A stretch of DNA of 64,000 nt, taken from NCBI GenBank assembly GCA_030432905.1, contig JAUILU010000001.1:372001-436000 (forward strand), given 5' to 3'. This DNA is from Phycisphaerae bacterium (GTDB lineage: Bacteria; Planctomycetota; Phycisphaerae; Phycisphaerales; UBA1924). The stretch's first letter is position 1; every line of letters starts with the position of its first letter. The position numbers were made by a program, and so were the translations under genes. Below are positions 9,926 through 56,968 of this stretch, piece after piece. The notes beneath the pieces are model-generated. The model ran no database searches. It was not told the DNA's origin and saw only the letters and a program-made list of their open reading frames with translations.

Positions 9926-9969
9926 TCACGCAAGCTCCTCCGGGAGCAGCAGACAACTCAAGTACACAC

Positions 9970-10049: not shown

Positions 10050-10081
10050 AAAGGGGACGGCCCATGCAAGCCGTCCCCTTT
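10050..10081 (-). terminator. Rho-independent terminator for the PEP-CTERM protein gene
   Basis: The perfect 12-bp inverted repeat AAAGGGGACGGC / GCCGTCCCCTTT has an 8-base loop. Read on the minus strand it is followed by TTCTATTT. It lies 25 bp downstream of the stop of the minus-strand gene at 10106-10999. With the terminator at 9970 it separates two convergent genes. Confidence 0.85.
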
Positions 10082-10105
10082 GGGAGTGATGAAAGTGTGT
10101 AAGAC

Positions 10106-10999
10106 TTAGCGGCGGCGACGAGTCGCTGCGATACCGCCCAGACCGAGCAGAACAGCAGAAGCCGGTGCCGGAACCTTGAGGGTGACGAATTGGTCACCGG
10201 CGAGGTTGTTGAAATCGATACCGGCGAGGCTGCCGTCGATGAAGTTGCCCATCATGTCGTTGCCGAGGCTGCCAGTGCCAGCCGGAGCGCCGCCAATGAT
10301 CTGGTTCGAGACGTAGTCGTGCGACCCGCCGTTGATGAAACCAGCAAGGCGGAGCAAGCCGCCTGTGTAGCCGAGTTCTGAGAGCGGAATGGCGATCTCG
10401 GTACCGGTCGAAACGAGTGCGGGGTCCGAATCATTCGGGTTGCCGAAGTCAGCGACGCCGCCCACGTTGGACTGGTTTGTGCCGAGTGTGTAACCGTTGC
10501 CGTTGGCACCGCCTGCAGCGATCTGGTCGCCGTCAACGTAGGCGCCGCCGCCCTGGAAGCCACCGGGGCCGCCTCCTGCGGAGTTGAGCTGGGCAGCACT
10601 GGTGTAGTGCTCATTCCGGTCACCGTTGACGGTGTATGTGAGGTAGTAGTCGGCCTCGAAGCCCGAATCGAAAGTCAGGCCGCCGAGCTTGTCGTTGAGC
10701 TGGTTAAAGTCAACGTCGGCGTTATCGTTCCGGAGTGAGTTCTGGCCGCCCGCGGTCGAGTCGAAGAACAACTCAAGCTTGTTGAAGTCCTGAACGTTGC
10801 CCGTAACACCGAGGTACAGGTTGTTGGTGTCGCAGTAGGCCCAGATGCCGTTGATCTCGCTGCGGTTGTTGCCGAAGGTCGTGCCTTCGTTGTTCGACCA
10901 GATCAGCTGGTAGTCGGTTTCGACGATCTGGCCGTCGATAACCTGACCCATAGCCGAGCCGGACAGCCCAATGAGGGCCATAGCGCAAATATTCTTCAT
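10106..10999 (-). CDS. PEP-CTERM-type sorted surface protein, single copy of the 7778-9925 repeat module
   Basis: A 297-residue exported protein. The signal peptide is MKNICAMALIGLSGSAMGQ. The C-terminus has VPAPASAVLLGLGGIAATRRRR in pieces: a PAPAS motif, a short hydrophobic helix and an RRRR tail, the PEP-CTERM layout recognised by exosortase-type systems. The body is one copy of the module repeated in the convergent neighbour: VIDGQI, NLYLGVTGN, FNKLELFFD, NSLRNDNADVDFNQL, SNVGGVADF and YVSNQIIGG. ATG 10999 has GGGAGAG upstream. Paired TGTATACA sites lie about 115-150 bp upstream. No enzyme motif is visible, and a binding or structural role is likeliest. Confidence 0.82.
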   Translation of the reverse strand: MKNICAMALIGLSGSAMGQVIDGQIVETDYQLIWSNNEGTTFGNNRSEINGIWAYCDTNNLYLGVTGNVQDFNKLELFFDSTAGGQNSLRNDNADVDFNQLNDKLGGLTFDSGFEADYYLTYTVNGDRNEHYTSAAQLNSAGGGPGGFQGGGAYVDGDQIAAGGANGNGYTLGTNQSNVGGVADFGNPNDSDPALVSTGTEIAIPLSELGYTGGLLRLAGFINGGSHDYVSNQIIGGAPAGTGSLGNDMMGNFIDGSLAGIDFNNLAGDQFVTLKVPAPASAVLLGLGGIAATRRRR

Positions 11000-39400: not shown

Positions 39401-40005
39401 GGTGTGGCCTCTTCAATGATTTCACCGATCTCACATGCGATCTCGAACCCGACAGCGCTGCCGCTGACATCGGGGCGTGGCGTCGTGGCAACAAGCCGTA
39501 CTGAATCGAACAGTCTGCATTCTTCGAGGAAGAGCGCGTACTTCGTGGCATCGACCTGCAGCAGCGAGACGCCCGAGATCTTCACCCGGTAAGGCCCCGA
39601 AGCCGCGATGCTCGGCGGAGAGACTTCTGTTGGGTTATCACGCACAATCGACGTCTCGACCAGTTCGAGATACACGTCCTCGTTCAAGCCCGCCGCGAGC
39701 ACCGCAAGAAGCACGCTCCACTTGGGCTGCCCCGCGATGTCCTCGGCGACCCCGAGCTCGTGCGTTACCGTTTCGATCTGTTTCCATGCCGCCGCTTCAG
39801 AGGCGTCGAGCTGATTGATGACCGATTGCACGTTGTGCAGTTCATCCCGAACTGGTGTGTCCATGTCGCGCAGGAACACATTGGCCAAGACGCATGCGGT
39901 CACACCGAACAGGATCAGCGCCCCCACGCCTCGGATCCAAACGACCATTCTTCGACGGTACCTGATCTTCTCGCGATACGGCGCTGGCAGGAGGTTGGTT
40001 TCCAT
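39397..40005 (-). CDS. PilN-like pilus platform protein
   Basis: A 202-residue protein starting METNLLPAPYREKIRYRRR, the INLLP-type N-terminal motif that in PilN docks into PilM. It is followed by a TM (VVWIRGVGALILFGVTACVLA), coiled coil and a C-terminal domain with YRVKISGVSLLQVDATKYALFLEEC. The ORF track opens 180 codons too early, inside pilM; ATG 40005 overlaps the pilM stop by one base (TGATG). The conserved N-terminus supports both start and assignment. Confidence 0.86.
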   Translation of the reverse strand: METNLLPAPYREKIRYRRRMVVWIRGVGALILFGVTACVLANVFLRDMDTPVRDELHNVQSVINQLDASEAAAWKQIETVTHELGVAEDIAGQPKWSVLLAVLAAGLNEDVYLELVETSIVRDNPTEVSPPSIAASGPYRVKISGVSLLQVDATKYALFLEECRLFDSVRLVATTPRPDVSGSAVGFEIACEIGEIIEEATP

Positions 40006-40892
40006 CACGCGGCCTCCTTGCTGCGCATGGCAAGCCCGATCGCGGTCGCCCACTTCGAGTCGAAGTTGATCCCGCTCAACCAAGGCTTCGGTGCCAGATC
40101 GATCGGCATGTCGTTGGTGATGTCGGCCTCGAAATCCTGCAGGATGATCTCGCAGACCTTGTCGTACACATCGGGTTGGCCCAGCACGACGATGGTCGCG
40201 TTCTCGAGCGACGGGAAACGAGACGCAAGGTAGTCGATTGTCCCGCCGATGCCGGCGCTGGCTTTCTGGATTACATCCGACCCGCTCGAGTGCGCGATGT
40301 TCCTGGCAAAGAGCACGTTGCTGCCTTCGAGCGCGTAGAGACGAACACTCCGGCGGCCAGCATCGATAATGACCCGGCTGTTGGCGCCGGTCACCCTTCC
40401 CAGTGCCACGACCTCGGGCTCGATCGCTTCGACCACGACACCTTCGTTCTCGAATGGCTGGATCATCTGTGTCGCGTCTTCGTGCGAGTAAGCGATTGAA
40501 AAGTACTCCGAAGCGCCCTGCCTGCCATCGCTTGGGAGATCCCACAGCCGAGACTCGAACGGGCCCTTGATGGTCTTTGACATCTCGGCATTGGCGAGCG
40601 ACTCGACCGGCGCACCGGATGACCTTGGCGGGAGTTCGAGTATCGAAGTCGCGAGCCTATCGGGCGAGGCGCTGATCGCGATCCGGTGCATGTTGACGCC
40701 TTGCCGCTGCATCGCACTGATGAGCCTCTGGACGTCACGTTCGATCGGACAGACGTGGTTCGGTGTCCTCTGCGTTTCTGTAGCCGCGACAACCTCAACG
40801 CCCGTGCCTGATTGGCGCAACGCCACAGCACGGAGCGTAGTGCTTCCGACGTCTACACCGATTGACAGTCTGCTGAGCACGTTGTTTCCCAT
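40005..40892 (-). CDS. pilM: PilM-like actin-fold pilus assembly protein
   Basis: A 295-residue cytoplasmic protein with an actin/FtsA-like fold. Phosphate-1 motif is in IGVDVGSTTLRAVAL; phosphate-2 in RVIIDAGRRSVRLYALEG; the adenosine region in ATIVVLGQPDVYDKV is weaker. It is a little shorter than typical PilM (about 350). PilM binds the N-terminus of PilN and couples cytoplasmic ATPases to the membrane platform. ATG 40892 overlaps the gspF/pilC stop by one base. Confidence 0.85.
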   Translation of the reverse strand: MGNNVLSRLSIGVDVGSTTLRAVALRQSGTGVEVVAATETQRTPNHVCPIERDVQRLISAMQRQGVNMHRIAISASPDRLATSILELPPRSSGAPVESLANAEMSKTIKGPFESRLWDLPSDGRQGASEYFSIAYSHEDATQMIQPFENEGVVVEAIEPEVVALGRVTGANSRVIIDAGRRSVRLYALEGSNVLFARNIAHSSGSDVIQKASAGIGGTIDYLASRFPSLENATIVVLGQPDVYDKVCEIILQDFEADITNDMPIDLAPKPWLSGINFDSKWATAIGLAMRSKEAA

Positions 40893-42103
40893 TAGCCGGC
40901 CCCCGTCGAAGCTGTCAGGTCGAACAGCGGCAAGAAGAGGCTGAGCGCGATAAACCCGACGAACAAGCCGAGCACCACAAGGATCAACGGCTCGATAATG
41001 CTCGTGAGCGACCGAATCACGATGTCGTTGTCTTCATCCATAATGTCCGCGAGACTCATGAGCACCTCGCCGACCCGGCCTGTCTGCTCGCCGTTACGGA
41101 TTGCTTCACAGACCGACGTAGACAGCAGGCTCGACCCCGAGAACGCGTCGCTCATCGACTCGCCCCGCTCGACCTTGTCACGGGCGGACACGATCAGCTC
41201 TTCGTAGAGCACGTTGTTCGAGCTGTTCTGCGCAATCTCGAGTGATTCGAGCAACGGCACGCGGGCTTCCATCAGCACACCCAGAACTCGCGCGAACTTC
41301 GCGGTTTTGAACTCGCGAACAAGTTTGCCGAAGACCGGGATGCGGATATGAACGATGTCCTTAATCCGGTTGCCTTTCTCAGTGCGGATCCACTTGAATA
41401 AGCTGAACCCGGTGACGCCCACAACCGAGAGCACGATCCACCAGTAGGTCTTGGCGTACTCAGCGGTGACCATAATCATCGAAGTCGATGCGGGGATCGG
41501 CGCATCAAGGGTTTCGAAGAGTTCCTTGAACCTCGGTAGCACCGTGAACGCGAGCAGCACCAGGACGCCTGACGCGACCACCAGCAGGAGCGACGGGTAC
41601 ACCATCGCACCGGAGACGCTGTTACGAATCGACAGCTCTTGTCTGACGATCTTGGTGAGACGGTTGAGGATGTTCTGGAAGTCGCCGCCCGATTCGCCCG
41701 CGGCGATCATCGCGCGGTACAACTCGTCGAAGGCCGGGTACTTGGCCATCGCCTCGGCCAACGGCGTGCCCTCCTCGACATGCGACCTCAAGTCAGAAAG
41801 GACTTCCTTCCATTTCGCGTCGGAGGACTGATTCTCGACGGCTTCGAGCGCTTGAACGATCGGCGTGCCGCTGGTGATGAGCACCGACATCTGCCGGGTA
41901 AACGCTGCGACGTTCTTGAGCTGGCTGCCTGCGAACAGCGGCCTCGACACCTTCTCGCCTGTCGCCTTGCCGTCTTCGGCGATCGAGTCGACGTAGAGAC
42001 CATCTGCCTCGATCAGCGAGCGTGCCTCGGCCTCTGACGACGCTTCTTTTAGGCCGTTCTTCTTCGACCCGTCTTTGGTGTAAGCCGTGTACCGGTAGTT
42101 CAT
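40892..42103 (-). CDS. PilC/GspF inner-membrane platform protein
   Basis: A 403-residue polytopic protein of normal length. It has the N-terminal NYRYTAYTKDGSKKNG segment, then two T2SSF repeats: AAFTRQMSVLITSGTPIVQAL ... GESGGDFQNILNRLT and AKFARVLGVLMEARVPLLESL ... NGEQTGRVGEVLMSLADIMDED, each followed by hydrophobic helices. It is the rotor/platform on which the assembly ATPase acts. ATG 42103 overlaps the ATPase stop by 4 bases. Confidence 0.95.
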   Translation of the reverse strand: MNYRYTAYTKDGSKKNGLKEASSEAEARSLIEADGLYVDSIAEDGKATGEKVSRPLFAGSQLKNVAAFTRQMSVLITSGTPIVQALEAVENQSSDAKWKEVLSDLRSHVEEGTPLAEAMAKYPAFDELYRAMIAAGESGGDFQNILNRLTKIVRQELSIRNSVSGAMVYPSLLLVVASGVLVLLAFTVLPRFKELFETLDAPIPASTSMIMVTAEYAKTYWWIVLSVVGVTGFSLFKWIRTEKGNRIKDIVHIRIPVFGKLVREFKTAKFARVLGVLMEARVPLLESLEIAQNSSNNVLYEELIVSARDKVERGESMSDAFSGSSLLSTSVCEAIRNGEQTGRVGEVLMSLADIMDEDNDIVIRSLTSIIEPLILVVLGLFVGFIALSLFLPLFDLTASTGAG

Positions 42104-43857
42104 GCCGCCAACCTCGTTTCATTGGCGGCAGGGCCCTCATCTTCTTCCTGCCCATCGACATGCGTCACACGCAGCGCCTCTTCGAGACTCGTCAAGCCTT
42201 CCATAGCAACGCGCACCGCTTCTTCACGCAGCGATGGCACGCCCTGCTCACGCAGCTTGACCCGCAGCTCGTGCGATGGCGCACCGATGTGGACAAGCTT
42301 CCTGATCGCCGGCGTCACCGCCATGAGTTCGTAGACACCGACCCGGCCGCTGAAGCCTGAGTCGTGGCAGTTCTGACAGCCGGCACCCTTGTGGAAGGAT
42401 CTTGGCGACTCTGTCGAGAGCCCGGCGTCGAGCAGAGCCGCGTCGCTCGGGTAGTACTTCGAGACACATTGTGGGCAGATCTTCCGCAAGAGTCGCTGCG
42501 CCACGGACCCGATGATCGCGCCCGAGAGCAGGTACGACTCGATACCCATGTCAACCAGTCGCGCAACCGCACCCGGGGCGTCGTTCGTGTGCAGGGTCGC
42601 AAGCACGAGGTGACCCGTGAGCGATGCCTGCACCGCGACGCGAGCGGTGTCCTCGTCTCGGATCTCGCCGATCATGATCGTGTCAGGGTCCTGACGGAGA
42701 ATACTCCGCAGCGCCCGCGAGAAGCTCAGACCGATCTGCTCGTTCACCTGGATCTGGTTCACCAGACCGACCTGATACTCGACCGGATCTTCAACTGTAA
42801 GGATGTTTCGTTCTGGTGTTCGCAGCTGATCCAGCGCTGAGTAGAGCGTCGTCGTTTTACCCGAACCAGTAGGACCCGTCACGAGTAGCAAGCCGTGCGG
42901 CCTATCGAGGAGATCCCTGAACGTCGTCATGTCATCCTGGCGGAAACCAAGGTCTTCAAGGCGCACACGCAGGTTTGACTTATCGAGCACACGCGCCACG
43001 ATCTTCTCGCCGAGTAGCGTGGGCATACTCGACATACGGAGGTCAACCTCTCGGCCCTCGGCAATAATCCGCACACGACCCTCTTGCGGCAGACGCTTCA
43101 CGGCGATGTCCATCTTCCCGATGACTTTGAGTCGGCTGATGATCGCCGAGTGCATGCCCGGGGGTGGGTTCATCAGATCGCGGAGCACGCCGTCGATCCG
43201 GTAGCGGATCCGCGTGCCACGTTTGTCGGGCTCGATGTGGATATCGCTCGACCCGTCTTTAACCGCGGTCAGCAGCGCAATGTTGACGAGATTGACGATC
43301 GGGCTTCCCGCGATCATCTTGTCGAGGTCTGTTTCGGGGCCGTCGTCTACGGATTCACGCTCGACAACCTCAAGATCCTGATCGCCGAGCGACATCAAGA
43401 ATTCGTCTACATTAACGTTTCCGCCCTTGTACTTGCGCACATACTCGAGGATGTTCGCCTCGAGCGCGAGCACGGGCCTGATCTCGTACCCGGTCGCCGA
43501 CTTGAGTCTGTCGATCGTCGGCAGGCTCTTGGGGTCCATCATCGCAACCGTCAGCGTGTTCCCGACCTTGAACATAGGGATAACAACGGATTTCTCGCAC
43601 TCTTCTTCGCCGATCTCGGAGATCAGAGTCGGATCGATCAGGCCGTGACGCAGGTGACAGCCTCGCACGCCCATGCACTTGGCCAGCGAATGGACGAGCA
43701 CCTGCCCGGAGACGATGCCCTGATCGACGAGCAGCGCACCGAGTTTTTCGCCGGTTCTGGCCTGCTCCATGAGCGCGCGCTGCAGCTGCTCTTCGTTGAT
43801 GGCGCCATCTTCAATCAGCGCCTCGCCTACCCGCTTGTGTCGCCTACGCAGACTCAA
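42100..43857 (-). CDS. PilB/GspE assembly ATPase
   Basis: A 585-residue cytoplasmic hexameric ATPase that powers pilus or pseudopilus assembly. The N-terminal GspE_N region (about 10-150) carries the MshEN-like GEALIEDGAINEEQLQRAL repeat; Walker A is GPTGSGKTTTLYSAL, the Asp box ILTVEDPVEYQ, Walker B MIGEIRDEDTA and the His box ATLHTNDA. A C4 zinc site is present: KICPQCVSKY ... GCQNCHDSG. MshEN domains bind c-di-GMP in some homologues. The start is TTG 43857, overlapping the STAS stop (TTGA). No PilT-like retraction ATPase is in the window. Confidence 0.95.
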   Translation of the reverse strand: MSLRRRHKRVGEALIEDGAINEEQLQRALMEQARTGEKLGALLVDQGIVSGQVLVHSLAKCMGVRGCHLRHGLIDPTLISEIGEEECEKSVVIPMFKVGNTLTVAMMDPKSLPTIDRLKSATGYEIRPVLALEANILEYVRKYKGGNVNVDEFLMSLGDQDLEVVERESVDDGPETDLDKMIAGSPIVNLVNIALLTAVKDGSSDIHIEPDKRGTRIRYRIDGVLRDLMNPPPGMHSAIISRLKVIGKMDIAVKRLPQEGRVRIIAEGREVDLRMSSMPTLLGEKIVARVLDKSNLRVRLEDLGFRQDDMTTFRDLLDRPHGLLLVTGPTGSGKTTTLYSALDQLRTPERNILTVEDPVEYQVGLVNQIQVNEQIGLSFSRALRSILRQDPDTIMIGEIRDEDTARVAVQASLTGHLVLATLHTNDAPGAVARLVDMGIESYLLSGAIIGSVAQRLLRKICPQCVSKYYPSDAALLDAGLSTESPRSFHKGAGCQNCHDSGFSGRVGVYELMAVTPAIRKLVHIGAPSHELRVKLREQGVPSLREEAVRVAMEGLTSLEEALRVTHVDGQEEDEGPAANETRLAA

Positions 43858-44189
43858 GAGAAGCTCCGTACCGCGGTGCTGATGTCATCGAACTGCTCGC
43901 AGATCGCACCGACTTCTGTAAGCGCGAGAACCTCGCGGATCGTTTCGTTTGTGCCAGAGAGCCTCAGCACCCGGCCCGAGTTGACGAGCTTGGTACCAAA
44001 GGTGTTGATCATGTCGAGGCCCTTGCTGTCCGTGTAGGGCACCATCGAGAGATCGAGCACGAGTCGGCCCTTGTTCTCCATGTAGGCCTGCTCAAGCGAA
44101 TCGTGGAGCGACATCGCATCGATCCCCAGGAGTGGCCCCTTAGGCGACAAGATCGTGACCGCGGCTTGTTGCTGGATATCGATGTTCAT
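43854..44189 (-). CDS. STAS domain protein (anti-sigma factor antagonist-like)
   Basis: A 111-residue single STAS domain: GPLLGIDAMSLHDSL, RLVLDLSMVPYTDSKGLDMI, NSGRVLRLSGTNETIREVLALTEV. The DSKG motif holds the Ser that is phosphorylated in SpoIIAA-type antagonists. It sits 11 bp after the histidine kinase gene and overlaps the pilus ATPase gene by 4 bases. No SpoIIAB-like kinase or PP2C phosphatase is adjacent, so its partner could be the histidine kinase or a distant protein. Confidence 0.87.
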   Translation of the reverse strand: MNIDIQQQAAVTILSPKGPLLGIDAMSLHDSLEQAYMENKGRLVLDLSMVPYTDSKGLDMINTFGTKLVNSGRVLRLSGTNETIREVLALTEVGAICEQFDDISTAVRSFS

Positions 44190-44200
44190 GTCTTGCCGTC

Positions 44201-45670
44201 CTACGCCGCCAGTCTCGGCTTGGGCATCGAGAGCGTGAACGTGCTGCCCTTGTTGAGTTCGGAATCGAGGTGGAGCTCCCCGCCGTGCATCTGAGCGACC
44301 TGCCTCGCGAACGCGAGACCGAGCCCAGTGCCCTCGATGTCAGAGACCCTGCTGTCATCCGAACGAAAGAACTTCTCGTACACCTTCTCCTGCTCTTCCG
44401 GCGCGATGCCGATTCCCGTGTCCTCGATCGCGATCCGCAGGATCGATTCCTCGTCCTCGGCGCGAACAACCACTGAACCACCCGACGGCGTGTACTTGAT
44501 CGCGTTGCCGACAAGGTTGTGAAGCGTCGCAGCGATCTTGTCGCGGTCGCCGTGCAACACGGGAATTTTCGGAGGCAGATCAAACGTGAGCGATACGCCC
44601 CTGTTCGCGGCAAGCGACGCAAAGTCTTTCTCTAAGTCTTCGAGAAGCTGCTCGATACGAACATCGCCGCGGTCCATGCTGCGTGCGCCGGCTTCGAGCT
44701 CGGAGATATCGAGCAACTCAGAGACGATCCGCTCAAGGCGTAGAGATTCGCTGGAGATCACATTCAGAGCCTCGGCCCGGCACTTGTGATCCTCTTCGCC
44801 CGCTTCGATTGCCTCATCAACATACAAACGGATGTTTGTCAGTGGCGTCCGGAGTTCGTGCGTCGCCTGAGCTAGGAAATCGTGACGGGAACGCTCGGCA
44901 AGTCTCTGGCGTGTCACGTCGTGGACGATGACCGAGGCGCACACGTCTGGGTTATCCTTGATCGGCGCGACAGACATCCGCAAGATTTCTTCGTAGGTCT
45001 TCATTCCGTTCTCGCGCACGATGTCAACACCAACCCGGCGTTGAACCCTGCCCGAGAGCACATCTTCGAAGCTCGCCAGCGAGTCTCCCTCAAGGTACTG
45101 GCGAAGATCCTTGCCGATGAGCGTTTCTTCCCCATCTGCGAGGACTGACACGCTTGACGTGTTGTGCAGGACAACTCTGCCAGCAGCGTCAACGATGCAT
45201 ATCGCGTCCGGGTGAGATTCGAGCGCCACGACTGCAGCACCGGCATCCATCGCAGCGCCTTGCGCGTCGGTGACGATCGGGAGCTGCGTGGCGCAGATTC
45301 GGCTGTGAACCAGACTGTTCCACGCGTTTGCGGGCCCTGATCCCGGGTCGGTGACCAGCAGTTCTGCCTCGGTCACTTCTGGTTCATTGGCGATGGTCAC
45401 CGCTTCGGCGACGCACGCGATGTGAAACAGGTTCTTTCTGGTTCGGGCAAGAAGTATCAAACCCACGACAACCGGCAAACCAACGACGCCGTAGAGAATC
45501 GGATCGATGTTTGCAAGCCCGCCGAGCTTCCAAGCCGAGAAAGCGAGAACCAGCGCCCCCGCGAGAACCGGTGTAGCGGCGAGCATGACGAGATCGGCCG
45601 GTGTTCGCGCCGATTGCCTCGACAGGACACTGTCCGTCTTTGATTTCTTTAGATTTGTACCGATTTGCAT
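44201..45670 (-). CDS. Membrane sensor histidine kinase with PAS domain
   Basis: About 489 residues. Two TM helices lie near the N-terminus (about 28-75) with almost no periplasmic loop; a PAS domain follows (HPDAICIVDAAGRVVLHNT), then HisKA with FLAQATHELRTPLTNIRLY and HATPase with GNAIKYTPSGG, DTGIGIAPEEQEKVYEKFF and GTGLGLAFARQVAQMHGG. All phosphotransfer motifs are intact. ATG 45670 is preferred to 45697, but neither has a clear Shine-Dalgarno. It is the first gene before STAS and the pilus ATPase. No cognate response regulator adjoins it. Confidence 0.9.
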   Translation of the reverse strand: MQIGTNLKKSKTDSVLSRQSARTPADLVMLAATPVLAGALVLAFSAWKLGGLANIDPILYGVVGLPVVVGLILLARTRKNLFHIACVAEAVTIANEPEVTEAELLVTDPGSGPANAWNSLVHSRICATQLPIVTDAQGAAMDAGAAVVALESHPDAICIVDAAGRVVLHNTSSVSVLADGEETLIGKDLRQYLEGDSLASFEDVLSGRVQRRVGVDIVRENGMKTYEEILRMSVAPIKDNPDVCASVIVHDVTRQRLAERSRHDFLAQATHELRTPLTNIRLYVDEAIEAGEEDHKCRAEALNVISSESLRLERIVSELLDISELEAGARSMDRGDVRIEQLLEDLEKDFASLAANRGVSLTFDLPPKIPVLHGDRDKIAATLHNLVGNAIKYTPSGGSVVVRAEDEESILRIAIEDTGIGIAPEEQEKVYEKFFRSDDSRVSDIEGTGLGLAFARQVAQMHGGELHLDSELNKGSTFTLSMPKPRLAA

Positions 45671-45825
45671 ATGTACAATCCGCCCAGCCGGGGCCATTCC
45701 CGGTAGGACGGATATCGGTCGACAGGACTTTCACTTCAACCCCTGCCCGGATTAGCGGACCGCAAGTGAGGAATTCACACTTCTCACCAGGCATTCCCCT
45801 TACCCGGGCAGCGAGTTATCCGGCC

Positions 45826-48800
45826 CTAGAGCGTGTTACGCAGACGTCGCCCGCTATCTCGTGCAGGCTCCTCGGGCGGCACCAGCATTATCTGGACGTT
45901 AACGATCTCGAAGTCGTCGTAGTCGTCACCCGAACTGATCCGGCTCTCGATCTCGATCGTGTTCTCGCCCTCATTGAGCCACTCGGCGGGGAACGCCGCG
46001 AAGAACGGCCCGAAGCTGCCATCTCTTGGGGAACCAGTCAGCGGTTTGCGAACACGGTTGCCGTTGATACGGATCACGTTGTTGGTCTGCAGCCCCTTGG
46101 CCAGCATCGTCACACCCGCCAGTTCGCCGAGCATCGCGTGCTGCTCCGCGTTGACAACAAAGTCGGCCTCGTACACCGTGCCCTCGCTGTCTTTCTGGAA
46201 CTGGCTGTTAATCCGACCACCGAACGCGTTGTTGCCCAGGTGGTGCACCTCTGGGTTCTCTTCGATCGAGATCACCGCCTGACGTATCGGATCGAGCCGG
46301 ATCTCTCTGACTACGCCTTCTTCAAGGCGCGCTATTGGCAGGTTGAACGCCGAAGGTGTGTAGCCGGCGAGTGAAGCTGTGACCGCAACAAAGTCCGCGT
46401 CGAACTCCGGGCGGAGCACAAACGTGCCGTCGTCGCCAGTGTGCGTCTCAACAAGCCCGCCGAGGTCGGAGTCGATTTTCACGAGCGCATTCGGGATCGG
46501 CTCATTAGTCACCGCATCGCGGACAACACCCGAGAAATGACGCTCGATCGCTACCTGCTCAGGTGCCTCGATGCTTGCGGGCAGGGCAAGGTCGAGATCG
46601 AGCATCCCGATGTCTTGATCCTCAAAGTCAGGTCTAGACGCAGCGTTCGAGCGCATGTGCTCAGATACATCAGTTATCGAGTCGTCGAATGCGGATGCAT
46701 TGAGCGAGGCTTCATCAAGCAGAGGTTCAGCAAAGTCGGGGTTGCTGTCTCCTGAGAGCGCGAGTTCCGCTTCACCGATGTCCTCGAACGAGGCTTCAAC
46801 TTCGCCGACATCCGCCTGCTCTGTGGATGATTCCGCCGATTCTCGCATCACTTCACCAGGGAGGTCCAACTCGGCGAACGAATCGTCAGCCTGTGCCAGG
46901 TCTGGCATATCGAAGTCATACTCACGCGGAGCGGATGAATCTGTAGTCGGCAGATCCATATCAAGTCGCTCATCGATGATGCTCAACCCCACATCGGCGA
47001 TCTCGGTTTGCTGCGTAGAACCACCGATACGCACTGCCGCGGCCGACGACTCATCTGACATCAAAGATGGCGATACCGCAAGCTGAGTTTCTTCTCCGGT
47101 TCGCTCGCTGCCCGCGCGATCTGGCAACTCAACAGAATCCGTCACGCTCCCGATCGCCTCTAGTTCAGGCACGACCTGATCCATGACCTGCCTAGGGGTT
47201 GGTTCGCTGTGACTCGGCACCGACACCGGATTCACCGCATGCAGCGATTCGGACGATGAATCGAATGCCTGAAGCGTCAGCGCCTGATCTGAGAACTGAT
47301 CAGTCGCCGTGAGCTGAACCTCGGCCTGGCTCGGATCGGATTGACCACGCGCAAGCGCGGACTCTGACGTCGCCTGCTGTTCCGTCACAGCTTCGCGGCT
47401 CGAGGTCGCCGGCAATTCGTACGCGACTTCAGCCTGCTGCTGCGGCAATTCCGCCTGAGTCGTCTGGTCCTGCTCACGCGTCGGCATCGCCTGCGTCAAC
47501 CGAACCTCTGCCGGTGCGAGTTGGTCGTTCACCTGTGTCGGCGTGAGCTCAGACCGCAGTTCAGAGTCGAAGCGCGGCGCCTGAGTCAACTCCATCGCCG
47601 CCTGATCGACAGCCATCTCGATCGAATCGCTTTGAACTTCAGAAGCCACTTCTCCTCTAATCTGCGAGATCGCGCCCCCGCCAACCGACGACGAGACCAG
47701 CGTGACCTTCGATCCGCCGGGCGTGTTGAATAAGCCGTCGAGGTTGTTCGAGACCTGCCACACGGTCAAGAGCGCCAGTAGAAGCATGTGGACCAAACCC
47801 GAGATAATCAGGCACTTCGCCAGCAGACCCAGCTTTCGCCAGCGGGCCTTCCAGCGGTCGTCCGTCGTAATCTTCCGAAGCAGGGCGAGCAACGCAAGCA
47901 GGGCCAGCAGGAGCAAGAGCCAAGGCACAACGATCTTCAGGAAGTCGACGAGCGACATCCGAGCCGCGAGCATCTCGACGTCACGGTACACCTCGCGCGA
48001 ATGCGTGCGGTAGAGGTTATAGTCCCGGTCGTCGTCAGCACCATCAATGCGGTCAGAACTGAACGCTAGCCCGAAGCCGCCCATGCCGAGAGTCGGATCG
48101 AGTTCGTTCTGCGCTGTGTTAACACCGTCGCCGAGGTGCTCGATCGGAAAGTACTCGCCGTCAACGAGCCGAACGCGGTAGAGATCAAACCCGCCCACGC
48201 CGCCCGGCCTGTCTGACGCGAAGTACATGAAGTCGTTGACAGGGCTGACCTCGGGCGCGCCGTCGTTGAACGCGCTCGACAGTTCTTCAACGAGTGACGC
48301 CTCGGCGATACCGCGGTCGGTGATCTCCGCCGAGTAGATGTCGTACGGCAAGTTCTGAAACGACTCCCGCACGGTCGCTGGCCAGCGCCCGGAAGAATCG
48401 AGCACCTTCTCATCCGGGTTTCGTGGCCGATTAGATGCGAAATAGAATCGCATAGAGTCGGGCGAAATTGATGGGCCGTAGTCGTTGAACACGCTGTTGA
48501 CGCTCGATCCGAGCACGCGAGGCTCGCCCCAGCTGACGCCTTCGCGTTCAACAAACCAGATATCGTACCCACCGAGTGACCCCGGGCGGTCGCTGTAGAA
48601 ATACAGCCCGTCGCCGTCGGGCGTAAACGCGGGGCCGAGATCGTCGTACTCGGTATTCAGAGCGGCAACAGGTTCCGGCTCGGTCCAGCCATCGGGCGTG
48701 CGGATCGACTGGTAGATATCCGCACCGTCACCAGGCCGGCCTCGCACGAACAGCAGCGTCAGCCCATCGGGACTGAGCGTCGGTTCGTACTCGTCGTAGT

Positions 48801-49005
48801 CTGTGTTGAGACGATCGCCGAGCCATTCCGGCGGTTGCCACAGAACATCGCGCAGCTTGGCAACTTCTTTCGATGCCCTAATCGTGTCCGCATCCGTGTA
48901 CACCGCGCTCGAGCGCGGCAACGTGAGCCAGAGCGCGGCTCCAACGACAACCGCACCAAGAATCACGCCAAGCATGACCGGGAATGTCTTTGCCGATCGC
49001 ATCAT
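45826..49005 (-). CDS. PD40 beta-propeller protein with TonB/TolA-like SxxxH helix, fused to carboxypeptidase-regulatory and jelly-roll-like domains
   Basis: A 1059-residue envelope protein. Parts in order: TM about 8-30; five PD40 (TolB-type) propeller repeats about 68-335 (YEPTLSPDG, GPAFTPDGD, GPSISPDSM, APEVSPVND, DPTLGMGGF, each followed by an SDRPG-like turn); TM about 354-376; a basic loop (RKITTDDRWKARWRK); TM about 397-417 with S402-GLV-H406. Then comes a Gln/Glu/Ser-rich low-complexity stretch to about 815, a carboxypeptidase-regulatory domain about 823-905 (FSGVVRDAVTNEPIPNALVKI), and a C-terminal galactose-binding-like domain ending LNEGENTIEIESRI. S-x3-H at the fifth and ninth residue of the helix is the proton-coupling motif of TonB and TolA. 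Basic residues before it predict N-in/C-out, as in TonB. It lies 10 bp after the ExbD-type gene. An energised envelope-spanning role is inferred. Confidence 0.75.
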   Translation of the reverse strand: MMRSAKTFPVMLGVILGAVVVGAALWLTLPRSSAVYTDADTIRASKEVAKLRDVLWQPPEWLGDRLNTDYDEYEPTLSPDGLTLLFVRGRPGDGADIYQSIRTPDGWTEPEPVAALNTEYDDLGPAFTPDGDGLYFYSDRPGSLGGYDIWFVEREGVSWGEPRVLGSSVNSVFNDYGPSISPDSMRFYFASNRPRNPDEKVLDSSGRWPATVRESFQNLPYDIYSAEITDRGIAEASLVEELSSAFNDGAPEVSPVNDFMYFASDRPGGVGGFDLYRVRLVDGEYFPIEHLGDGVNTAQNELDPTLGMGGFGLAFSSDRIDGADDDRDYNLYRTHSREVYRDVEMLAARMSLVDFLKIVVPWLLLLLALLALLALLRKITTDDRWKARWRKLGLLAKCLIISGLVHMLLLALLTVWQVSNNLDGLFNTPGGSKVTLVSSSVGGGAISQIRGEVASEVQSDSIEMAVDQAAMELTQAPRFDSELRSELTPTQVNDQLAPAEVRLTQAMPTREQDQTTQAELPQQQAEVAYELPATSSREAVTEQQATSESALARGQSDPSQAEVQLTATDQFSDQALTLQAFDSSSESLHAVNPVSVPSHSEPTPRQVMDQVVPELEAIGSVTDSVELPDRAGSERTGEETQLAVSPSLMSDESSAAAVRIGGSTQQTEIADVGLSIIDERLDMDLPTTDSSAPREYDFDMPDLAQADDSFAELDLPGEVMRESAESSTEQADVGEVEASFEDIGEAELALSGDSNPDFAEPLLDEASLNASAFDDSITDVSEHMRSNAASRPDFEDQDIGMLDLDLALPASIEAPEQVAIERHFSGVVRDAVTNEPIPNALVKIDSDLGGLVETHTGDDGTFVLRPEFDADFVAVTASLAGYTPSAFNLPIARLEEGVVREIRLDPIRQAVISIEENPEVHHLGNNAFGGRINSQFQKDSEGTVYEADFVVNAEQHAMLGELAGVTMLAKGLQTNNVIRINGNRVRKPLTGSPRDGSFGPFFAAFPAEWLNEGENTIEIESRISSGDDYDDFEIVNVQIMLVPPEEPARDSGRRLRNTL

Positions 49006-49015: not shown

Positions 49016-49429
49016 CTATCGCGTGGGCACGGTGTCCAAATACGGCTCTTGAATCCCCGACAGCTTGCACGCATCGAGCACACCAACAACCTGGCTGTAC
49101 GTCGCGGCCTGATCCGCGCGGATCGTCACCTTCTGCTCCGGATTTGCCGCGACGGCCTCCGACACAATCGCCCGCAGGTCCTCGATGCTCACTGTTCGCC
49201 CGCTGACGATGATCTCGCCGTCGGATTGAACGTTGATGATCAGTTCGCGCAGCGTCATCGAAATAGGCCCGCCGCTCTCGGCGACCGGGAGCGCGATCTG
49301 CATCTCTCGCTCCGATTGCTGGAACGTCGTTGCAACCAAGAAGAAGATCAGCAGCAGGAACACAATGTCGATGATCGGCGTGAGTTCGATCGACGGCGAC
49401 GAATCGGTTGACTTGGCTTTGAGTAGCAT
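49016..49429 (-). CDS. ExbD/TolR-family proton channel subunit
   Basis: A 137-residue bitopic membrane protein. The single TM carries the essential Asp: IELTPIIDIVFLLLIFFLVATTF. The periplasmic domain follows (LINVQSDGEIIVSGRTVSIEDL, VTIRADQAATYSQVVGVLDAC), a normal ExbD fold. The ORF track adds 28 residues; ATG 49429 is chosen because it follows the ExbB stop at 49440 by 10 bases and starts the conserved chain. With ExbB it forms the proton-driven stator. Confidence 0.93.
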   Translation of the reverse strand: MLLKAKSTDSSPSIELTPIIDIVFLLLIFFLVATTFQQSEREMQIALPVAESGGPISMTLRELIINVQSDGEIIVSGRTVSIEDLRAIVSEAVAANPEQKVTIRADQAATYSQVVGVLDACKLSGIQEPYLDTVPTR

Positions 49430-49439
49430 GCTTGGGTCC

Positions 49440-50213
49440 TTAGCCGATCGCGCCGCCGCGCACCGGGAACGAATCGGCAACGACGCCGCTGTGCTCGTCT
49501 TCCAACTCTTCATCCGCGTGGCCGGTCGCGCTGGCGATCGCCTCGACCGCGTCCATGCACACCGAGTCCATCTGACGTGTTAGGTTCTCGATGCGGGAGG
49601 AGAACCAGTGGTACACAACCAGCGCCGGGATCGCAACGACGAGGCCCGCGGCGGTTGTGATCATGGCCTCATAGATTCCGCCTGCGAGCAGTTCGGTTTT
49701 ACCGAGCGAATCCGCCGAGACCGCGACGGTTTGGAACGCCTTAATCATGCCGAATATCGTGCCGACAAGACCGAGCAGAGGAGCGATCGCCGCGACGACT
49801 GACAACGCGCGCAGTCTTCTGCGGAGCATGAAGATCTCGTGCTCACCCGCGGCGGCCATGTGCTTCTCGACTGACTCCATCGGTCTGCCGATCCGCTCCA
49901 CACCACCGAGCACTGTGCGTGCGATCGGGCTGTCGGACTGCTTGCAGTAGTTGACCGCGTCTTGCTTGCCGCTTGTGCCGCGTTCGAGTAGCGGGAACAG
50001 GCCGCTGGCGAAGTTGTCGGGTATGACTTGTTTCTTGCGGAGCACGACCGCGCGTTCGACCGTGACCGTGACGATCACAAGCGAGCAGATCGCGATCGGG
50101 ATCATCATCAGGCCACCCTTGACCACGAAATCCCAGACCGAGTTGACTGCGACCTCCGTGGCCTCGGCTCCGGCGGCTTCCTGCGCGAGTGTGAGCAATA
50201 GTGACGTATCCAC
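49440..50213 (-). CDS. ExbB/TolQ/MotA-family proton channel subunit
   Basis: A 257-residue protein with three TM regions: VKGGLMMIPIAICSLVIVTVTVERA, VVAAIAPLLGLVGTIFGMIKAF and MITTAAGLVVAIPALVVYHWFSSRI. The last two contain the conserved family motifs (PLLGLxGTVxGM and TxxGLxxAIPAxxxYN). A long cytoplasmic loop lies between the first and second helix. GTG 50213 is the start. The gene lies 18 bp after the TPR gene, and all four genes of this locus are on one strand with gaps of 10-18 bp. Confidence 0.94.
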   Translation of the reverse strand: MDTSLLLTLAQEAAGAEATEVAVNSVWDFVVKGGLMMIPIAICSLVIVTVTVERAVVLRKKQVIPDNFASGLFPLLERGTSGKQDAVNYCKQSDSPIARTVLGGVERIGRPMESVEKHMAAAGEHEIFMLRRRLRALSVVAAIAPLLGLVGTIFGMIKAFQTVAVSADSLGKTELLAGGIYEAMITTAAGLVVAIPALVVYHWFSSRIENLTRQMDSVCMDAVEAIASATGHADEELEDEHSGVVADSFPVRGGAIG

Positions 50214-50231: not shown

Positions 50232-53200
50232 TTACCCGCCCTGTTCTGTTCGTGGCATCAGCCGTTCGAGTCTGCGTTCGGACATCACGGCCCAGTCTGT
50301 TTCATTGAACCGCTCGATCACATCCGTGAACTGGCTGATCGCGTCCGCGTCACGGTCGAGTTCCTCGAAGCACCGGCCCGCCTCGTAGAGAGCCGCCGCC
50401 GACCACTTCGGGTAGGCGTACACAAGATCAACCCGCAGGAATTCGCGGACCGCTTCGTCGTGCTTACCCTGCGCGAAGAGGCATTCACCGATCTGGAACT
50501 GCGCCCTCGCGGCGGTCTCGCCGTCGTGGTGCTCGACGACCTTGCGGTACTCCGCGATCGCTTCGTCGTGCCTGCTCTGGTTCTCGATCGCCCACGCGAA
50601 TCCGAATCTCGCAAGGTACAACCGATCGTCGGTCGGATACTCGTCGATGAATTCTGTGTATGTATCTTCGGCTCTGGACCAGTACTGAAGCCCCCCGAAC
50701 ACCTCACCAAGCCTGAGCATCGCGACTGGACGGATCGCATCGTCATCGAACCCCTGCGCGATCTCAAACAGCATCTGCGCCTCGGACAGCTTACCAAGAT
50801 GCAGGTTCGATTCCCCGGCGAGCAGCGCCGACGACGCGTTGATCCGCTGGGTCGGCTCACGGGTGGCGAGTTCGTAGAGCGCATCGATCGCACGGGTGTG
50901 CTCGTTCATCTCTCTTGCACAGACGCCGAGCCTGTACATGGCCTGATCCGCAACCGTGGGGTCTAGCCCCTCGCGATCATGGAGAATCTGCTCGCAGAAT
51001 TCCGCAGCTTCGGCGTACTCGCCCGCGTTCATCGACAGCACAGCAAGCTCTAGCCCCGTGTGCTGCGCGAGCCGATCATCGGGATAGAGATCGAGCAGCA
51101 GAACGAACGAACCGGCCGCGTCTTCGGCGCGTTCGAGGGCAACGAGCGATCGGCCCCGTTCGTACAGAACAGTCGCCGCGGTCTCGGCTGCGAGTGCGCC
51201 AAGATCAGCTGGCCTGCGTGTGAACATCTCGGACGCCTCGACCGCCCGTTCGTGTTCACCAAGCCTGGCGAGCGCGATCACGCCGAGTGCGCCGGCCTTT
51301 GTCCGTATCTCAGCCTGCTCTGCGTTATCCGCCAGATCCGCGAGCACCCTGTACGCTCTCTCGTAGGAACCCGACGTCAGAAGAGCCCTGCCCTGTTCGA
51401 GTGACGAAGCGCCCGACAGCTCTCCATCGGACACCGACGCGGCACGCGCGAAGTACTCCGCCGCGTCCTCATCGTTGCCCGAATCTCGCGCAAGCTGTGC
51501 GAGTTGGCGGAGCGCGTAGCCGGCGACTTCGTCATCACCAGCCGAAGCCGCCGATTCAAACGCGGCAACAGCTTGGTCTGACTCGTCGAGTTCGAGCAGC
51601 ACGAGTCCGAGTTCGTACCTCGCCCGGCCGTCGGCATCATTGCCGGCGTCAACGATCTGGCTGAACGCCGACTGCGCCGCTCTGCGGTCCCCCGCCTGTT
51701 TGTGCGCCAGCCCAAGGCGAAGAGCCGCGGCGTCCCACGAGGGCACATCGGTGCCCAGCTCGACATACCGGCTAAGCCACGCCGCCGATTCCTGCCAATC
51801 CTCGTCGGAGTAAGCCATATCTCCGAGCGCTAGCAGTCCCGCCCTGTACTCGCTACTGACCTCGCCCGAATCGAACAAGTCGCTCAGCACGCGCCGTGCT
51901 TCTTCGCGTTCGCCGATCTGGCGGAGGCTCATACCGAGCCGGTACTGGACCGTACCACTTAGCCTGTGATTGGCCGGCATGTCTTCCCCCAGCCGAGCAA
52001 ACAGCCGAGCGGATGACTGGTAGTCGTCCTGCTGGTACGCGCTCTCTGCGGACAGGAATCTCGCTTCGTAAGCCGAATCACCGTCCAAACCGTCGGCGGC
52101 TTCGTCGGCGAGTCGGCTCGCGAGCCTTTGGTCATCTGAGTTCTGTGCAAAAGAAGCCGCAGCGAGCAGGGCTTGGTGAGAGAGCGAGTGGCCCGTGTAC
52201 AACTGGTTGAATCGGCGGAGTGTTCTGATCGCGGCCTCGTGGTCGCCGCTCTTTCCCTGCGCCAAACCAAGCTCGTACATCATCTCGGGAAGCAACTCGG
52301 AACGGTCGTGCTCCTCAACAGCGTCGGCCAGAAGCCGAGCCGCGCCTGCCGCGTCACCGGCCTCGCTGAGCGCCCGAGCCTGCCAATACGCCGCGTCGTC
52401 TTGCAACCGCTCGGGGCCGCGGGTCCGCACCTCATCGAGGAATTCATCGGCAGCCGCGTAGTCGCCGAGCAGCGTCGCGACCCGCCCGCGTTCAAGCTGG
52501 AGCTTGGCCATCGTCACTTCATCGAGATCGCGCTCACGGATCGTGCCCAGCATCTCGTTGGCTTCGGTGTGGCGATCAAGATCAGAAAGTACCTGCGCCA
52601 AGCCGAGCCTCGCGTCGAACGCGGGCATGCCCCCGGCTCGTTCCACAGCTCCCGAGTACGCCCGCAGCGCCTCGTCCAACCTGCCGATCGCTTGCAGGCT
52701 TCGACCCTGCGCAAGTAGTGCCGCTTGCGCGAGCGACGAGTTGCCCCTACCGATCCGTGCGAACCTGTCAGCCGCTGCTTGGTGCCGACCCAGCTTCGCC
52801 TCGGCAAGCCCCGCAAAGTAGGACGCCCGCTCGCCGACCGCACCGCTTAAATCAGACTCGTACTCTTCGAATGCCTCGATCGCGCGTTCCGATTGGTCCC
52901 CTCGGAATCGCGCCTCGACGAGTAACGCCGCGGCTTGGGGCGCCAGCTTGTGATCGCCGTGCCTTGAGAGCGCCCTTTCGAGCACACCCGCCGAGTCTCG
53001 TGATTCACCGATGGCGAGCTTGCTCCGCCCGACGAGCACCGCCGACTCCATCGCGTACTGGAACCTGTGTTTGTTCAGGATCGGCTCGAGCGCCTCGATC
53101 GTTTCGTCGTGCCTGCCAAGCCTGCTGGCCGCGACCGCCAAGCCGTAGCGTGCCTGGTCCGCGAGTTCGTGGTCGCCGTGCTTCTCGAGGAACCGCTTGT

Positions 53201-53360
53201 ACTCATCGATCGCGAGATCGTCGAGGCCCCTGCTGAGCATGCCTGAGGCGGCGTTGTAGTTGTCCACTGCCCTACCACCGTCCTGGGCCGCCGCCGGCGC
53301 GATAATCGCAAGCCCCGCCGATGCCGCAAGAACACCCGCCAATACACGTTTCTGGTTCAT
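50232..53360 (-). CDS. Large periplasmic TPR-repeat protein
   Basis: A 1042-residue exported protein with signal peptide MNQKRVLAGVLAASAGLAIIAPAAAQ. The whole mature chain is a solenoid of tetratricopeptide repeats (about 25 by eye), e.g. LARYGLAVAASRLGRHDETIEA, AAADRFARIG, AQYRLGMSLRQIGE-like units, ending in ALYEAGRCFEELDRDADAISQF. The last units resemble the TPR part of YbgF/CpoB of the Tol-Pal system. ATG 53360 has GGGAGC upstream. It is first in the ExbB/ExbD operon and probably a periplasmic scaffold; cargo unknown. Confidence 0.85.
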   Translation of the reverse strand: MNQKRVLAGVLAASAGLAIIAPAAAQDGGRAVDNYNAASGMLSRGLDDLAIDEYKRFLEKHGDHELADQARYGLAVAASRLGRHDETIEALEPILNKHRFQYAMESAVLVGRSKLAIGESRDSAGVLERALSRHGDHKLAPQAAALLVEARFRGDQSERAIEAFEEYESDLSGAVGERASYFAGLAEAKLGRHQAAADRFARIGRGNSSLAQAALLAQGRSLQAIGRLDEALRAYSGAVERAGGMPAFDARLGLAQVLSDLDRHTEANEMLGTIRERDLDEVTMAKLQLERGRVATLLGDYAAADEFLDEVRTRGPERLQDDAAYWQARALSEAGDAAGAARLLADAVEEHDRSELLPEMMYELGLAQGKSGDHEAAIRTLRRFNQLYTGHSLSHQALLAAASFAQNSDDQRLASRLADEAADGLDGDSAYEARFLSAESAYQQDDYQSSARLFARLGEDMPANHRLSGTVQYRLGMSLRQIGEREEARRVLSDLFDSGEVSSEYRAGLLALGDMAYSDEDWQESAAWLSRYVELGTDVPSWDAAALRLGLAHKQAGDRRAAQSAFSQIVDAGNDADGRARYELGLVLLELDESDQAVAAFESAASAGDDEVAGYALRQLAQLARDSGNDEDAAEYFARAASVSDGELSGASSLEQGRALLTSGSYERAYRVLADLADNAEQAEIRTKAGALGVIALARLGEHERAVEASEMFTRRPADLGALAAETAATVLYERGRSLVALERAEDAAGSFVLLLDLYPDDRLAQHTGLELAVLSMNAGEYAEAAEFCEQILHDREGLDPTVADQAMYRLGVCAREMNEHTRAIDALYELATREPTQRINASSALLAGESNLHLGKLSEAQMLFEIAQGFDDDAIRPVAMLRLGEVFGGLQYWSRAEDTYTEFIDEYPTDDRLYLARFGFAWAIENQSRHDEAIAEYRKVVEHHDGETAARAQFQIGECLFAQGKHDEAVREFLRVDLVYAYPKWSAAALYEAGRCFEELDRDADAISQFTDVIERFNETDWAVMSERRLERLMPRTEQGG

Positions 53361-53792: not shown

Positions 53793-54437
53793 TTAACGCC
53801 TGCGTCGCCCCGCGATCAGCCCCGCGGCTCCGAACAGAGCAGCCGAAGCCGGTGCCGGGACCGGGCGGACGTTGACGCCGTCGATGCCCATGTAGGCCGC
53901 CGAGTCGCCGCCGCTGACCCACTGGGAAGCGATCGCCAGTTCGAAATCGTCTGCTGGCGCGATGAAGTCGAGCGTGCCGAACGTCCAGACGATGTCGTCG
54001 GCTGCGTTGATCTGCTTCGACAGCGTGACGGTGTCACCGAATGCGACTCCGTCTGCGTACATGCGGAAGAAGCCGTCGGCGCCGCTCCAGCCGGCCCCGT
54101 TGAACCCGAGGTTTGTGATGTAGAACTCGACCGTGTAGAGCTGCCCAGCGGTGAAGCCGGTCAGATCCTGCGCGAACGCCTCGTTGACGCCTGTGCCGTT
54201 GGCCCCTGCTCGGACGAACGTGCCACCATTGGGCGAGAGCACCCACGGGTTTCCGGTCACATTGAACGGGCCGGCTGAGTCGCAGGTGTCAACCGAGCCT
54301 GACCAGGAGAACCAGTCGGTCGGGGCGATGCTCGAACCGACCGGGCCGGTGAGATCGCCATTGGTGATGGCCTGTGCCCCCGCTACCGAGGCCATGCCAG
54401 CCGAGAGTGCGAACGCGATTGCTTTGTAGGTGTACAT
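53793..54437 (-). CDS. PEP-CTERM-type sorted surface protein
   Basis: A 214-residue exported protein. ATG 54437 has GGAGGA upstream and opens the signal MYTYKAIAFALSAGMASVAGAQA; the track's 27 extra residues are dropped. The mature body begins ITNGDLTGPVGSSIAPTDWFSW, a pattern of jelly-roll domains that bind sugars or lie in surface layers (FVRAGANGTGVNEAFAQDLTGFTAGQLYTVEFYITNLG in parts). The C-terminus VPAPASAALFGAAGLIAGRRRR is the sorting tail. No enzyme motif is seen. It lies alone, 108 bp upstream (by transcription, after) the sdaA gene. Confidence 0.8.
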   Translation of the reverse strand: MYTYKAIAFALSAGMASVAGAQAITNGDLTGPVGSSIAPTDWFSWSGSVDTCDSAGPFNVTGNPWVLSPNGGTFVRAGANGTGVNEAFAQDLTGFTAGQLYTVEFYITNLGFNGAGWSGADGFFRMYADGVAFGDTVTLSKQINAADDIVWTFGTLDFIAPADDFELAIASQWVSGGDSAAYMGIDGVNVRPVPAPASAALFGAAGLIAGRRRR

Positions 54438-54545
54438 GTCTTCCTCCGTTGATCCTGTTTCCCCCCGCCAACTCGGCGAGACACAGGAACATCCGGAGTC
54501 CGTCACCAGACACGACACGGCTTGTAGAAATTTCTTCGAGTTAGC

Positions 54546-56014: not shown

Positions 56015-56869
56015 TCAATCCACACCTGATTCGGCATCAGCCCAAGGTGTGCGGACCCGCCAGATGCACAGACCCGATGCTTTAGGTGTCCCCGTTGCCC
56101 GCCCGCTAGTGAAGTACAGCCAGTTCCCATCGGGGCTCAGGCAAGGGCTGCCGTCGATCGCGCCCGTGTTGAATGGCAGCAGTTCTGGCTCGCTCCAGCC
56201 ATCTTCTGTCCGTTCGCTCATGTAAAGATCCGACAACCCCGGCCCCTCGGGCTCGCCCATCCGCACAAAGATCAACCGTTTCCCGTCGGGCGTGAGAAGC
56301 GCATCGTGTTCACGGTATCGCGTGTTGATCGGCGCGCCGAGCCGGTCCGGCTTGCCCCAGCCTTCACCGTCGGGCTGGGCGAGGTAGATATCCCAGTTCC
56401 CGGCCGCCTGCCTCGTAAAGCACAGCTCGCCGTCCTTTGACACCGTGGGGTAAGCCTCGGGCTCTCTGGTGCTGATCTCGCCCGCTACCTCCGAAGGCTC
56501 AGACCACTTCCCATCCTCGTCGCGCTGCATCGTCCACACGTCGGCATCGCGGTACATCAGAAAGCGTTTGCCGTCGGGCGAAAGATGCCCGTCCCCGGCA
56601 TCGACGCCGTCGAGCTGGCCGTCGAAGTAGTCCGTTTGCTCCCACGCGCCATCAACAAGCCTGAGCGATTCGATCGTGCCCACGCCGGTGGTATCGTCGT
56701 ACCGGGTCAGCACCAGCAGACCGCCCTCGGGCGAGAGCGTTGTGTTAAACTCCGTGTTCGTCGTCGAGACAACGCCCGGCCCGACCAGCTCGGGTGTGCC
56801 CCACCCTTGTTCTTGAGTTTCTTGTTCCGAAACCAAAACTAGTGCGCACAACACGCCGACACAGACCAT
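56015..56869 (-). CDS. Small exported PD40 beta-propeller protein
   Basis: A 284-residue protein with a short N-terminal hydrophobic segment (MVCVGVLCALVLVS), probably a signal peptide, followed by five PD40 repeats: TTLSPEGGLLVLTR, GHLSPDGKRFLMYRD, PTVSKDGELCFTRQ, ALLTPDGKRLIFVR and PCLSPDGNWLYFTSGR. The propeller is of the same kind as in the 45826-49005 protein, but without membrane helices. ATG 56869 has GGGAG upstream. Function unknown; PD40 propellers usually serve as protein-binding platforms. Confidence 0.8.
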   Translation of the reverse strand: MVCVGVLCALVLVSEQETQEQGWGTPELVGPGVVSTTNTEFNTTLSPEGGLLVLTRYDDTTGVGTIESLRLVDGAWEQTDYFDGQLDGVDAGDGHLSPDGKRFLMYRDADVWTMQRDEDGKWSEPSEVAGEISTREPEAYPTVSKDGELCFTRQAAGNWDIYLAQPDGEGWGKPDRLGAPINTRYREHDALLTPDGKRLIFVRMGEPEGPGLSDLYMSERTEDGWSEPELLPFNTGAIDGSPCLSPDGNWLYFTSGRATGTPKASGLCIWRVRTPWADAESGVD

Positions 56870-56968
56870 CGCTTGAACTCCCTGCCCGCTGCGGGAGAGC
56901 TGTACAAGAACGGCGGCTGCCGGATGCGATTTGATCAGGTTTTATGATCAGTTCATGAGCACTCAGAA

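Follow-up and report, generated by a model that had tools for sequence, protein, structure and literature searches.

Planctomycetes have an outer membrane. Their Tol-Pal set is reduced (PMC8871954). The closest described relatives of the locus presented here are transducers that share an SHLS helix, with the published spacing S-x3-H-x6-L-x3-S, and in a cryo-EM structure S28 and W32 of TolQ contact the Ser/His of TolA (PMC12215075). Just past the helix of TonB lies the D-box, a strand captured by the ExbD dimer, whose pattern is hydrophobic-polar-hydrophobic-polar-hydrophobic-hydrophobic-polar (PMC10907165); from published residue numbers, V47 of TonB stands at H20 +27 (PMC10907165, PMC12215075). 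vWA SHLS force transducers have been described as a new class, present in Planctomycetes and others (Williams-Jones et al. 2025, PMC12204202). Finally, PorE combines a five-bladed propeller with a carboxypeptidase-regulatory domain (PMC7192894). We found no earlier description of a propeller-fused SHLS protein in the open-licence papers searched.

The window, that is, the whole 64,000-nucleotide stretch of Phycisphaerae DNA analyzed here, carries four tightly packed genes on one strand: TPR, exbB, exbD and a gene for a 1059-aa protein. We read this last protein, with a probability of about 85%, as a periplasmic force transducer that is powered by the proton motive force and belongs to a Tol-like envelope machine spread across the phylum. 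It comprises, in order, a membrane helix (TM1), a five-bladed PD40 propeller, a second helix (TM2), a basic loop and a third helix (TM3) with a C-x3-S-x3-H motif, followed by a D-box-like strand, a 376-aa disordered linker and a two-domain C-terminus. The features are as follows.

50232..53360 (-): gene for a secreted TPR protein, 1042 aa, with a YbgF/CpoB-like C-terminus (TIGR02795)
49440..50213 (-): exbB/tolQ (PF01618, 1e-29), with S44 (TolQ S28) and the Thr ring, T152 and T187
49016..49429 (-): exbD/tolR (PF02472, 1.1e-29), read from the MLLKAKS... start; the longest ORF is 49016-49513, and the proton-site Asp is D49 of that long ORF
45826..49005 (-): putative force-transducer gene, 1059 aa (ORF, Pfam, AlphaFold)
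48922..48987 (-): TM1, N-terminal membrane anchor, residues 7-28 (AlphaFold helix)
47968..48858 (-): periplasmic PD40 beta-propeller, five blades, residues 50-346 (Pfam PD40, 1.5e-26; pLDDT mostly >90)
47863..47952 (-): TM2, residues 352-381 (AlphaFold helix)
47827..47874 (-): basic cytoplasmic loop, residues 378-393 (composition)
47752..47826 (-): TM3, putative motor-coupling helix, residues 394-418, AlphaFold helix 394-426 (AlphaFold and conservation)
47812..47814 (-): codon of C398, one helical turn before S402
47800..47802 (-): codon of S402, equivalent of TonB S16 and TolA S18
47788..47790 (-): codon of H406, equivalent of TonB H20 and TolA H22
47692..47712 (-): D-box-like beta strand SKVTLVS, residues 432-438 (conservation, D-box pattern)
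46561..47688 (-): low-complexity linker rich in Ser, Ala, Glu, Asp and Gln, residues 440-815 (composition)
46285..46542 (-): carboxypeptidase-regulatory/transthyretin-like domain, about residues 822-907 (PF13620, 1.3e-06, below its cutoff)
45868..46284 (-): jelly-roll CBM35/BcsB-like domain, about residues 908-1046 (Foldseek and VIA structure matches)

A first-pass annotation had pointed to an SxxxH pair in the third membrane helix. The pair is indeed present: 47755-47817(-) translates into KCLIISGLVHMLLLALLTVWQ, residues 397-417 of the 1059-aa ORF, with S402 and H406. The positions given for them in the helix (5-6 for Ser, 9-10 for His) are not those of the predicted helix, which starts at residue 394, so that Ser is its 9th and His its 13th residue. 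The loop ahead of TM3 is basic, as had been noted (8 Lys/Arg versus 2 Asp/Glu in residues 377-397), and an N-in/C-out orientation of TM3, also proposed then, is therefore the expected one. The exbBD neighbors lie directly upstream on the same strand, again in agreement with the annotation. By itself, SxxxH is weak evidence, since 5 of 534 TM-like segments in other, unrelated ORFs of the fetched loci (about 1%) contain it as well.

An initial search of GTDB contigs with the full-length protein (1059 aa) found no relative, and no solved structure resembles it in sequence. In whole genomes, a first step recovered 12 full-length relatives from the same family and order; a second step, using an alignment of the TM2-TM3-strand region, gave matches in 82 of the 397 genomes scanned for the class and in 39 of the 392 for the phylum, most of the genomes compared being metagenome assemblies. 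AlphaFold models of 49 homologues (mean pLDDT 83) comprise TM1, propeller, TM2 and TM3. One sequence was excluded: at L036 (G012:C62, about 7570-8975), the propeller frame continues, close to where the contig stops, into sequence of unrelated kind, probably through an assembly chimera.

Conservation was counted in 106 distinct homologous sequences across Planctomycetota, over a 120-column region. Position 406 is His in 105 of them, the sole exception being a Tyr in L148; at position 402, 97 sequences have Ser and the other 9 have Ala. Free variation of the two residues, which the annotation had named as the outcome that would speak against it, is not observed. On a tree built without the helix, H406 requires one change, C398 three and S402 five, while the median helix column requires 26. 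With so many sequences retaining Ser and His and only five and one inferred changes, conservation of the motif is not due to chance. The annotation expected S402 and H406 to be the most conserved residues of this helix. This holds as far as the pair is concerned, but Cys398 (103/106) matches the His, and relative entropy over the whole region peaks at C398 and H406. The motif is therefore C-x3-S-x3-H. TonB and TolA have no Cys corresponding to C398. Together with L413 and W416, the three motif residues fall within about 80 degrees, on one helix face. S402, H406 and L413 fit the SHLS spacing, while the last Ser position is occupied by Gln417; among the 106 homologues, the Leu position is Phe in 47 and Leu in 41, and the last Ser position is Gln, Glu, Lys or other. 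This Leu and this Ser are poorly kept in TonB as well (PMC12215075).

The strand beyond TM3 (GGSKVTLVS in context) is also conserved: V434, which stands at H406 +28, is Val or Ile in 102 of the 106 homologues, and L436 is Leu, Val or Ile in 100. The corresponding TolA strand lies, as we take it from our own count of the TolA sequence, about 30 residues after H22. SKVTLVS is like a D-box strand, at the distance observed in TonB and TolA, and by analogy its capture by ExbD is predicted.

The motor genes themselves were analyzed in 90 aligned ExbD and ExbB proteins from these operons. The membrane Asp of ExbD and residues S44, T152 and T187 of ExbB are present in 90/90, and P196, the TM3 proline of ExbB, in 87/90. 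Alignment to the 90-member family pairs S44 with S28 of TolQ; a HMMER pairing of S44 with TolQ S31 falls in a poorly supported stretch and was discarded. At the position of the Trp that contacts TonB or TolA in E. coli, most ExbB proteins here have Leu or Val, so the Trp half of this contact is not kept. Taken together, the sequences lead us to infer strongly that TM3 would couple to the ExbBD motor.

The first gene of the operon encodes a protein that scores above the TIGR02795 (YbgF/CpoB) cutoff, with 212.8 bits versus 90.1, a score summed over five stretches that repeats may inflate; the match may in part reflect generic TPR similarity. YbgF is the CpoB family of the Tol-Pal system. The order TPR-exbB-exbD-transducer, on one strand, is found at 89 of the 89 loci that are not cut by a contig end, from the window's own family to distant classes, and 10 bases separate the end of exbD from the transducer ATG. 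Genes 3' of the operon are not conserved across loci. In the window, 40005-45697 (-) encodes a histidine kinase, a STAS protein, GspE, GspF and PilM, a succession that no locus read outside the window's genus shares. Elsewhere in the window, 53793-54518 (-) encodes a protein with a PEP-CTERM-like end, VPAPASAALFGAAGLIAGRRRR.

Blade motifs at residues 75, 125, 178, 251 and 304 indicate five blades in the propeller. Geometric alignment of its model gives five-bladed GH43/GH62-type propellers as best matches, with Z up to 21; TolB is also present among the first 20 Foldseek rows. Blade count and geometric alignment together rule out a six-bladed, TolB-type propeller. Furthermore, the protein scores 22.8 bits against TIGR02800 (TolB), whose cutoff is 343, and Pfam detects no TolB_N in the protein or in its own genome. 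NCBIfam places the propeller nearest to PorE and CHU_0125, with scores that fall far short of either cutoff; the best match is PorE NF052230, with 129 bits (1.6e-37) versus a cutoff of 600. The OmpA peptidoglycan-binding domain is absent from the protein by Pfam. Two other observations concern propeller proteins. A second one, a 308-codon PD40 frame without motor helix, occupies window positions 56018-56941 (-). L142, L145 and L147 are longer forms (1481-1755 aa) that carry, besides the terminal alpha/alpha toroid, another one ahead of the propeller.

The combination of propeller and carboxypeptidase-regulatory domain recalls PorE of type IX secretion (PMC7192894), and we may thus consider a secretion, pilus or gliding apparatus in which ExbBD force would move surface polymers or pilus parts. 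The histidine kinase, STAS, GspE, GspF and PilM genes that follow the operon in the window's genus point the same way. However, these pilus and secretion neighbors are absent beside the operon in most relatives and no PorK/L/M/N-type partners are seen within it, so that we consider such an apparatus unlikely.

We find that the motor helix is constant and the C-terminal grip exchangeable. In 89 full proteins, the end domain is an alpha/alpha toroid of the squalene-cyclase type in 44, the two-domain arrangement in 25 and both in 19, one protein being cut at a contig end. In the window's protein, the C-terminal model has a pLDDT of 90. A weak PF13620 match spans residues 825-887, and the transthyretin-like domain aligns with that of carboxypeptidase D over 80 residues (Z 12.2, rmsd 1.9). 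The jelly roll resembles rhamnogalacturonan lyase, CBM35 and BcsB carbohydrate-binding domains (Z 9-10). By this analogy of fold, our guess is that the C-terminal domains may bind glycans. A domain with the landmarks VHHLG...NSQFQ...DDFEFVN is an unnamed family with invariant residues; in L262, L267, L270 and L271 it also forms the end of proteins predicted to be secreted, from bacteria other than planctomycetes such as Desulfonema magnum. Neither TonB_C (PF03544; Pfam scan, E<=1) nor a TolA C-domain (PF06519/PF13103; Pfam scan) was matched in the protein. Accordingly, the term 'TonB/TolA-type' used in the first-pass annotation stands for the motor-coupling part but does not extend to the C-terminal domains, which have other folds.

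Could the protein nevertheless be a true TonB, energizing outer-membrane receptors for the uptake of large nutrients, with its C-terminal domains replacing the TonB C-domain as receptor grip? Its ExbBD partners, SHLS helix and D-box are what a TonB would have. In Bacteroidota, receptors have an N-terminal extension of the carboxypeptidase-regulatory kind, and SusC extensions of this sort are matched by the C-terminal model with Z 9.0-10.9. Against this, TonB_C is matched neither in the protein nor in its genome, and the PF00593 receptor barrel, which Pfam detects in 147 of 199 phylum genomes, has no occurrence in the window's own genome (G000). Three other genomes with the operon (G027, G072, G090) likewise have no receptors, and this makes TonB-style nutrient import quite improbable here. 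We also rejected a link by co-occurrence, in view of these four genomes and of G040, G044 and G045, which have receptors without the operon.

Elsewhere in the window's genome, two further proteins with S-x3-H are encoded close to other exbD genes. The first, L052 (G000:C1:180000-197000, 4191-10658 (-)), is a vWA SHLS transducer with exbB, two exbD and TPR genes, the arrangement of the class described by Williams-Jones et al. 2025 (PMC12204202); its SLLVH helix is the same, and the gene likewise stands next to an exbBD of its own. The second, L053 (G000:C1:450000-467000, 6424-7578 (-)), is a 385-aa protein encoded about 1 kb away from a third exbD; its end looks like that of TonB or TolA, and it has a C-x3-S-x3-H helix, VVCLLVSLFIHAG. 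Its helix, CLLVSLFIH, also has a Cys at Ser-4. L053 matches no Pfam family and is likely an undetected TonB or TolA. Since it resembles one by eye, the lack of PF03544 in this genome does not amount to the lack of any TonB/TolA relative. In records from Schlesneria and others, L257, L264, L209 and L260 have no propeller; they share the same C-terminal domain pair and a K-S-F-x-L-S-x-L-x-H helix, with a D-box-like strand in at least two of them. No exbBD lies alongside these four genes in the fetched DNA.

Alternatively, Ser and His could be kept for reasons other than motor coupling, for example because helices pack together in a membrane sensor or because the Cys/Ser/His face binds a metal or haem, with exbBD merely co-regulated. 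This could be argued from the conservation of Cys398, which TonB and TolA lack, and from L148, which has neither Ser nor His. We consider it improbable given the SHLS spacing of Ser, His and Leu, the D-box at the right distance, a gene order invariant over the phylum and the recurrence of this helix both in the vWA transducer and in the four proteins that have no propeller.

Returning to a force transducer, we may propose the following mechanism. TM3 would dock on TM1 of the neighboring ExbB pentamer through its C398/S402/H406 face, as TonB and TolA do by S-x3-H, and the ExbD dimer would capture the GGSKVTLVS strand, D-box-like, with its periplasmic domain. Proton flow through ExbBD would then turn or pull helix and strand. 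Through the long disordered linker, this force would reach the C-terminal domains, whose most likely hold in the outer envelope is a glycan or a partner bound to glycan. The propeller would sit at the periplasmic face of the inner membrane, held between TM1 and TM2, where it probably offers a platform on which the motor, or the TPR/CpoB-like product of the first gene, can dock.

What load is pulled, and to what cellular end, we infer only weakly. The best reading of a set formed by TPR, TolQ, TolR and transducer is that it most resembles a Tol-type envelope maintenance system rather than a nutrient importer. The gene set argues for such a role, and TolB_N is matched in only 7 of 199 phylum genomes, all weakly, a scarcity in accord with the reduced Tol-Pal of this phylum (PMC8871954). 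As a tentative and rather doubtful extension, the four-gene operon could be the planctomycete counterpart of Tol-Pal, a proton-driven system holding the outer membrane to the wall or remodeling it when these FtsZ-less bacteria divide, with propeller and TolA-like transducer fused and with exchangeable C-terminal grips, CBM-like or alpha/alpha toroid, binding envelope glycan directly instead of Pal. A conserved motor transducer of new layout, present across the phylum, is in any case a candidate for mechanical work in the planctomycete envelope, and two residues, S402 and H406, provide mutable test points for this role.

Comparison with named systems places the protein as follows. Because the defining domains that we looked for are lacking, it is not a TonB, TolA, TolB or PorE. 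PorE of Bacteroidota likewise unites a five-bladed propeller with a carboxypeptidase-regulatory domain in a single envelope protein, but it is a lipoprotein of the outer membrane that has TPR and a peptidoglycan-binding OmpA domain, whereas the window protein has none of these and spans the inner membrane. With the TonB of ExbBD, it shares the S-x3-H helix and D-box associated with ExbBD; it differs by the lack of a TonB C-domain, by a genome in which Pfam finds no receptor barrels and by three membrane helices instead of one. The likeness to E. coli TolA and Tol-Pal is broader: an S-x3-H-x6-L helix, a D-box-like strand and TolQ and TolR partners, with a PD40 propeller and a CpoB/YbgF-like TPR protein in the same operon. 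Here, however, the propeller is fused to the transducer, has five blades and is devoid of the TolB N-terminal domain, and there is neither a TolA C-domain in the protein nor a pal gene in the operon.

The vWA SHLS transducers (PMC12204202) share the SHLS helix, the motor box, a disordered linker and a C-terminal domain that is not that of TonB; their genes also adjoin TPR, tolQ-like and tolR-like genes, and they too are present in Planctomycetes. In contrast to these, the window protein has its motor helix in third position, after a propeller, one tolR instead of two, and a C-terminus that is not vWA: carboxypeptidase-regulatory and CBM-like in the window, or alternatively an alpha/alpha toroid. 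The protein thus belongs among the SHLS force transducers, as a member with the motor helix third, a fused propeller and new C-terminal grips.
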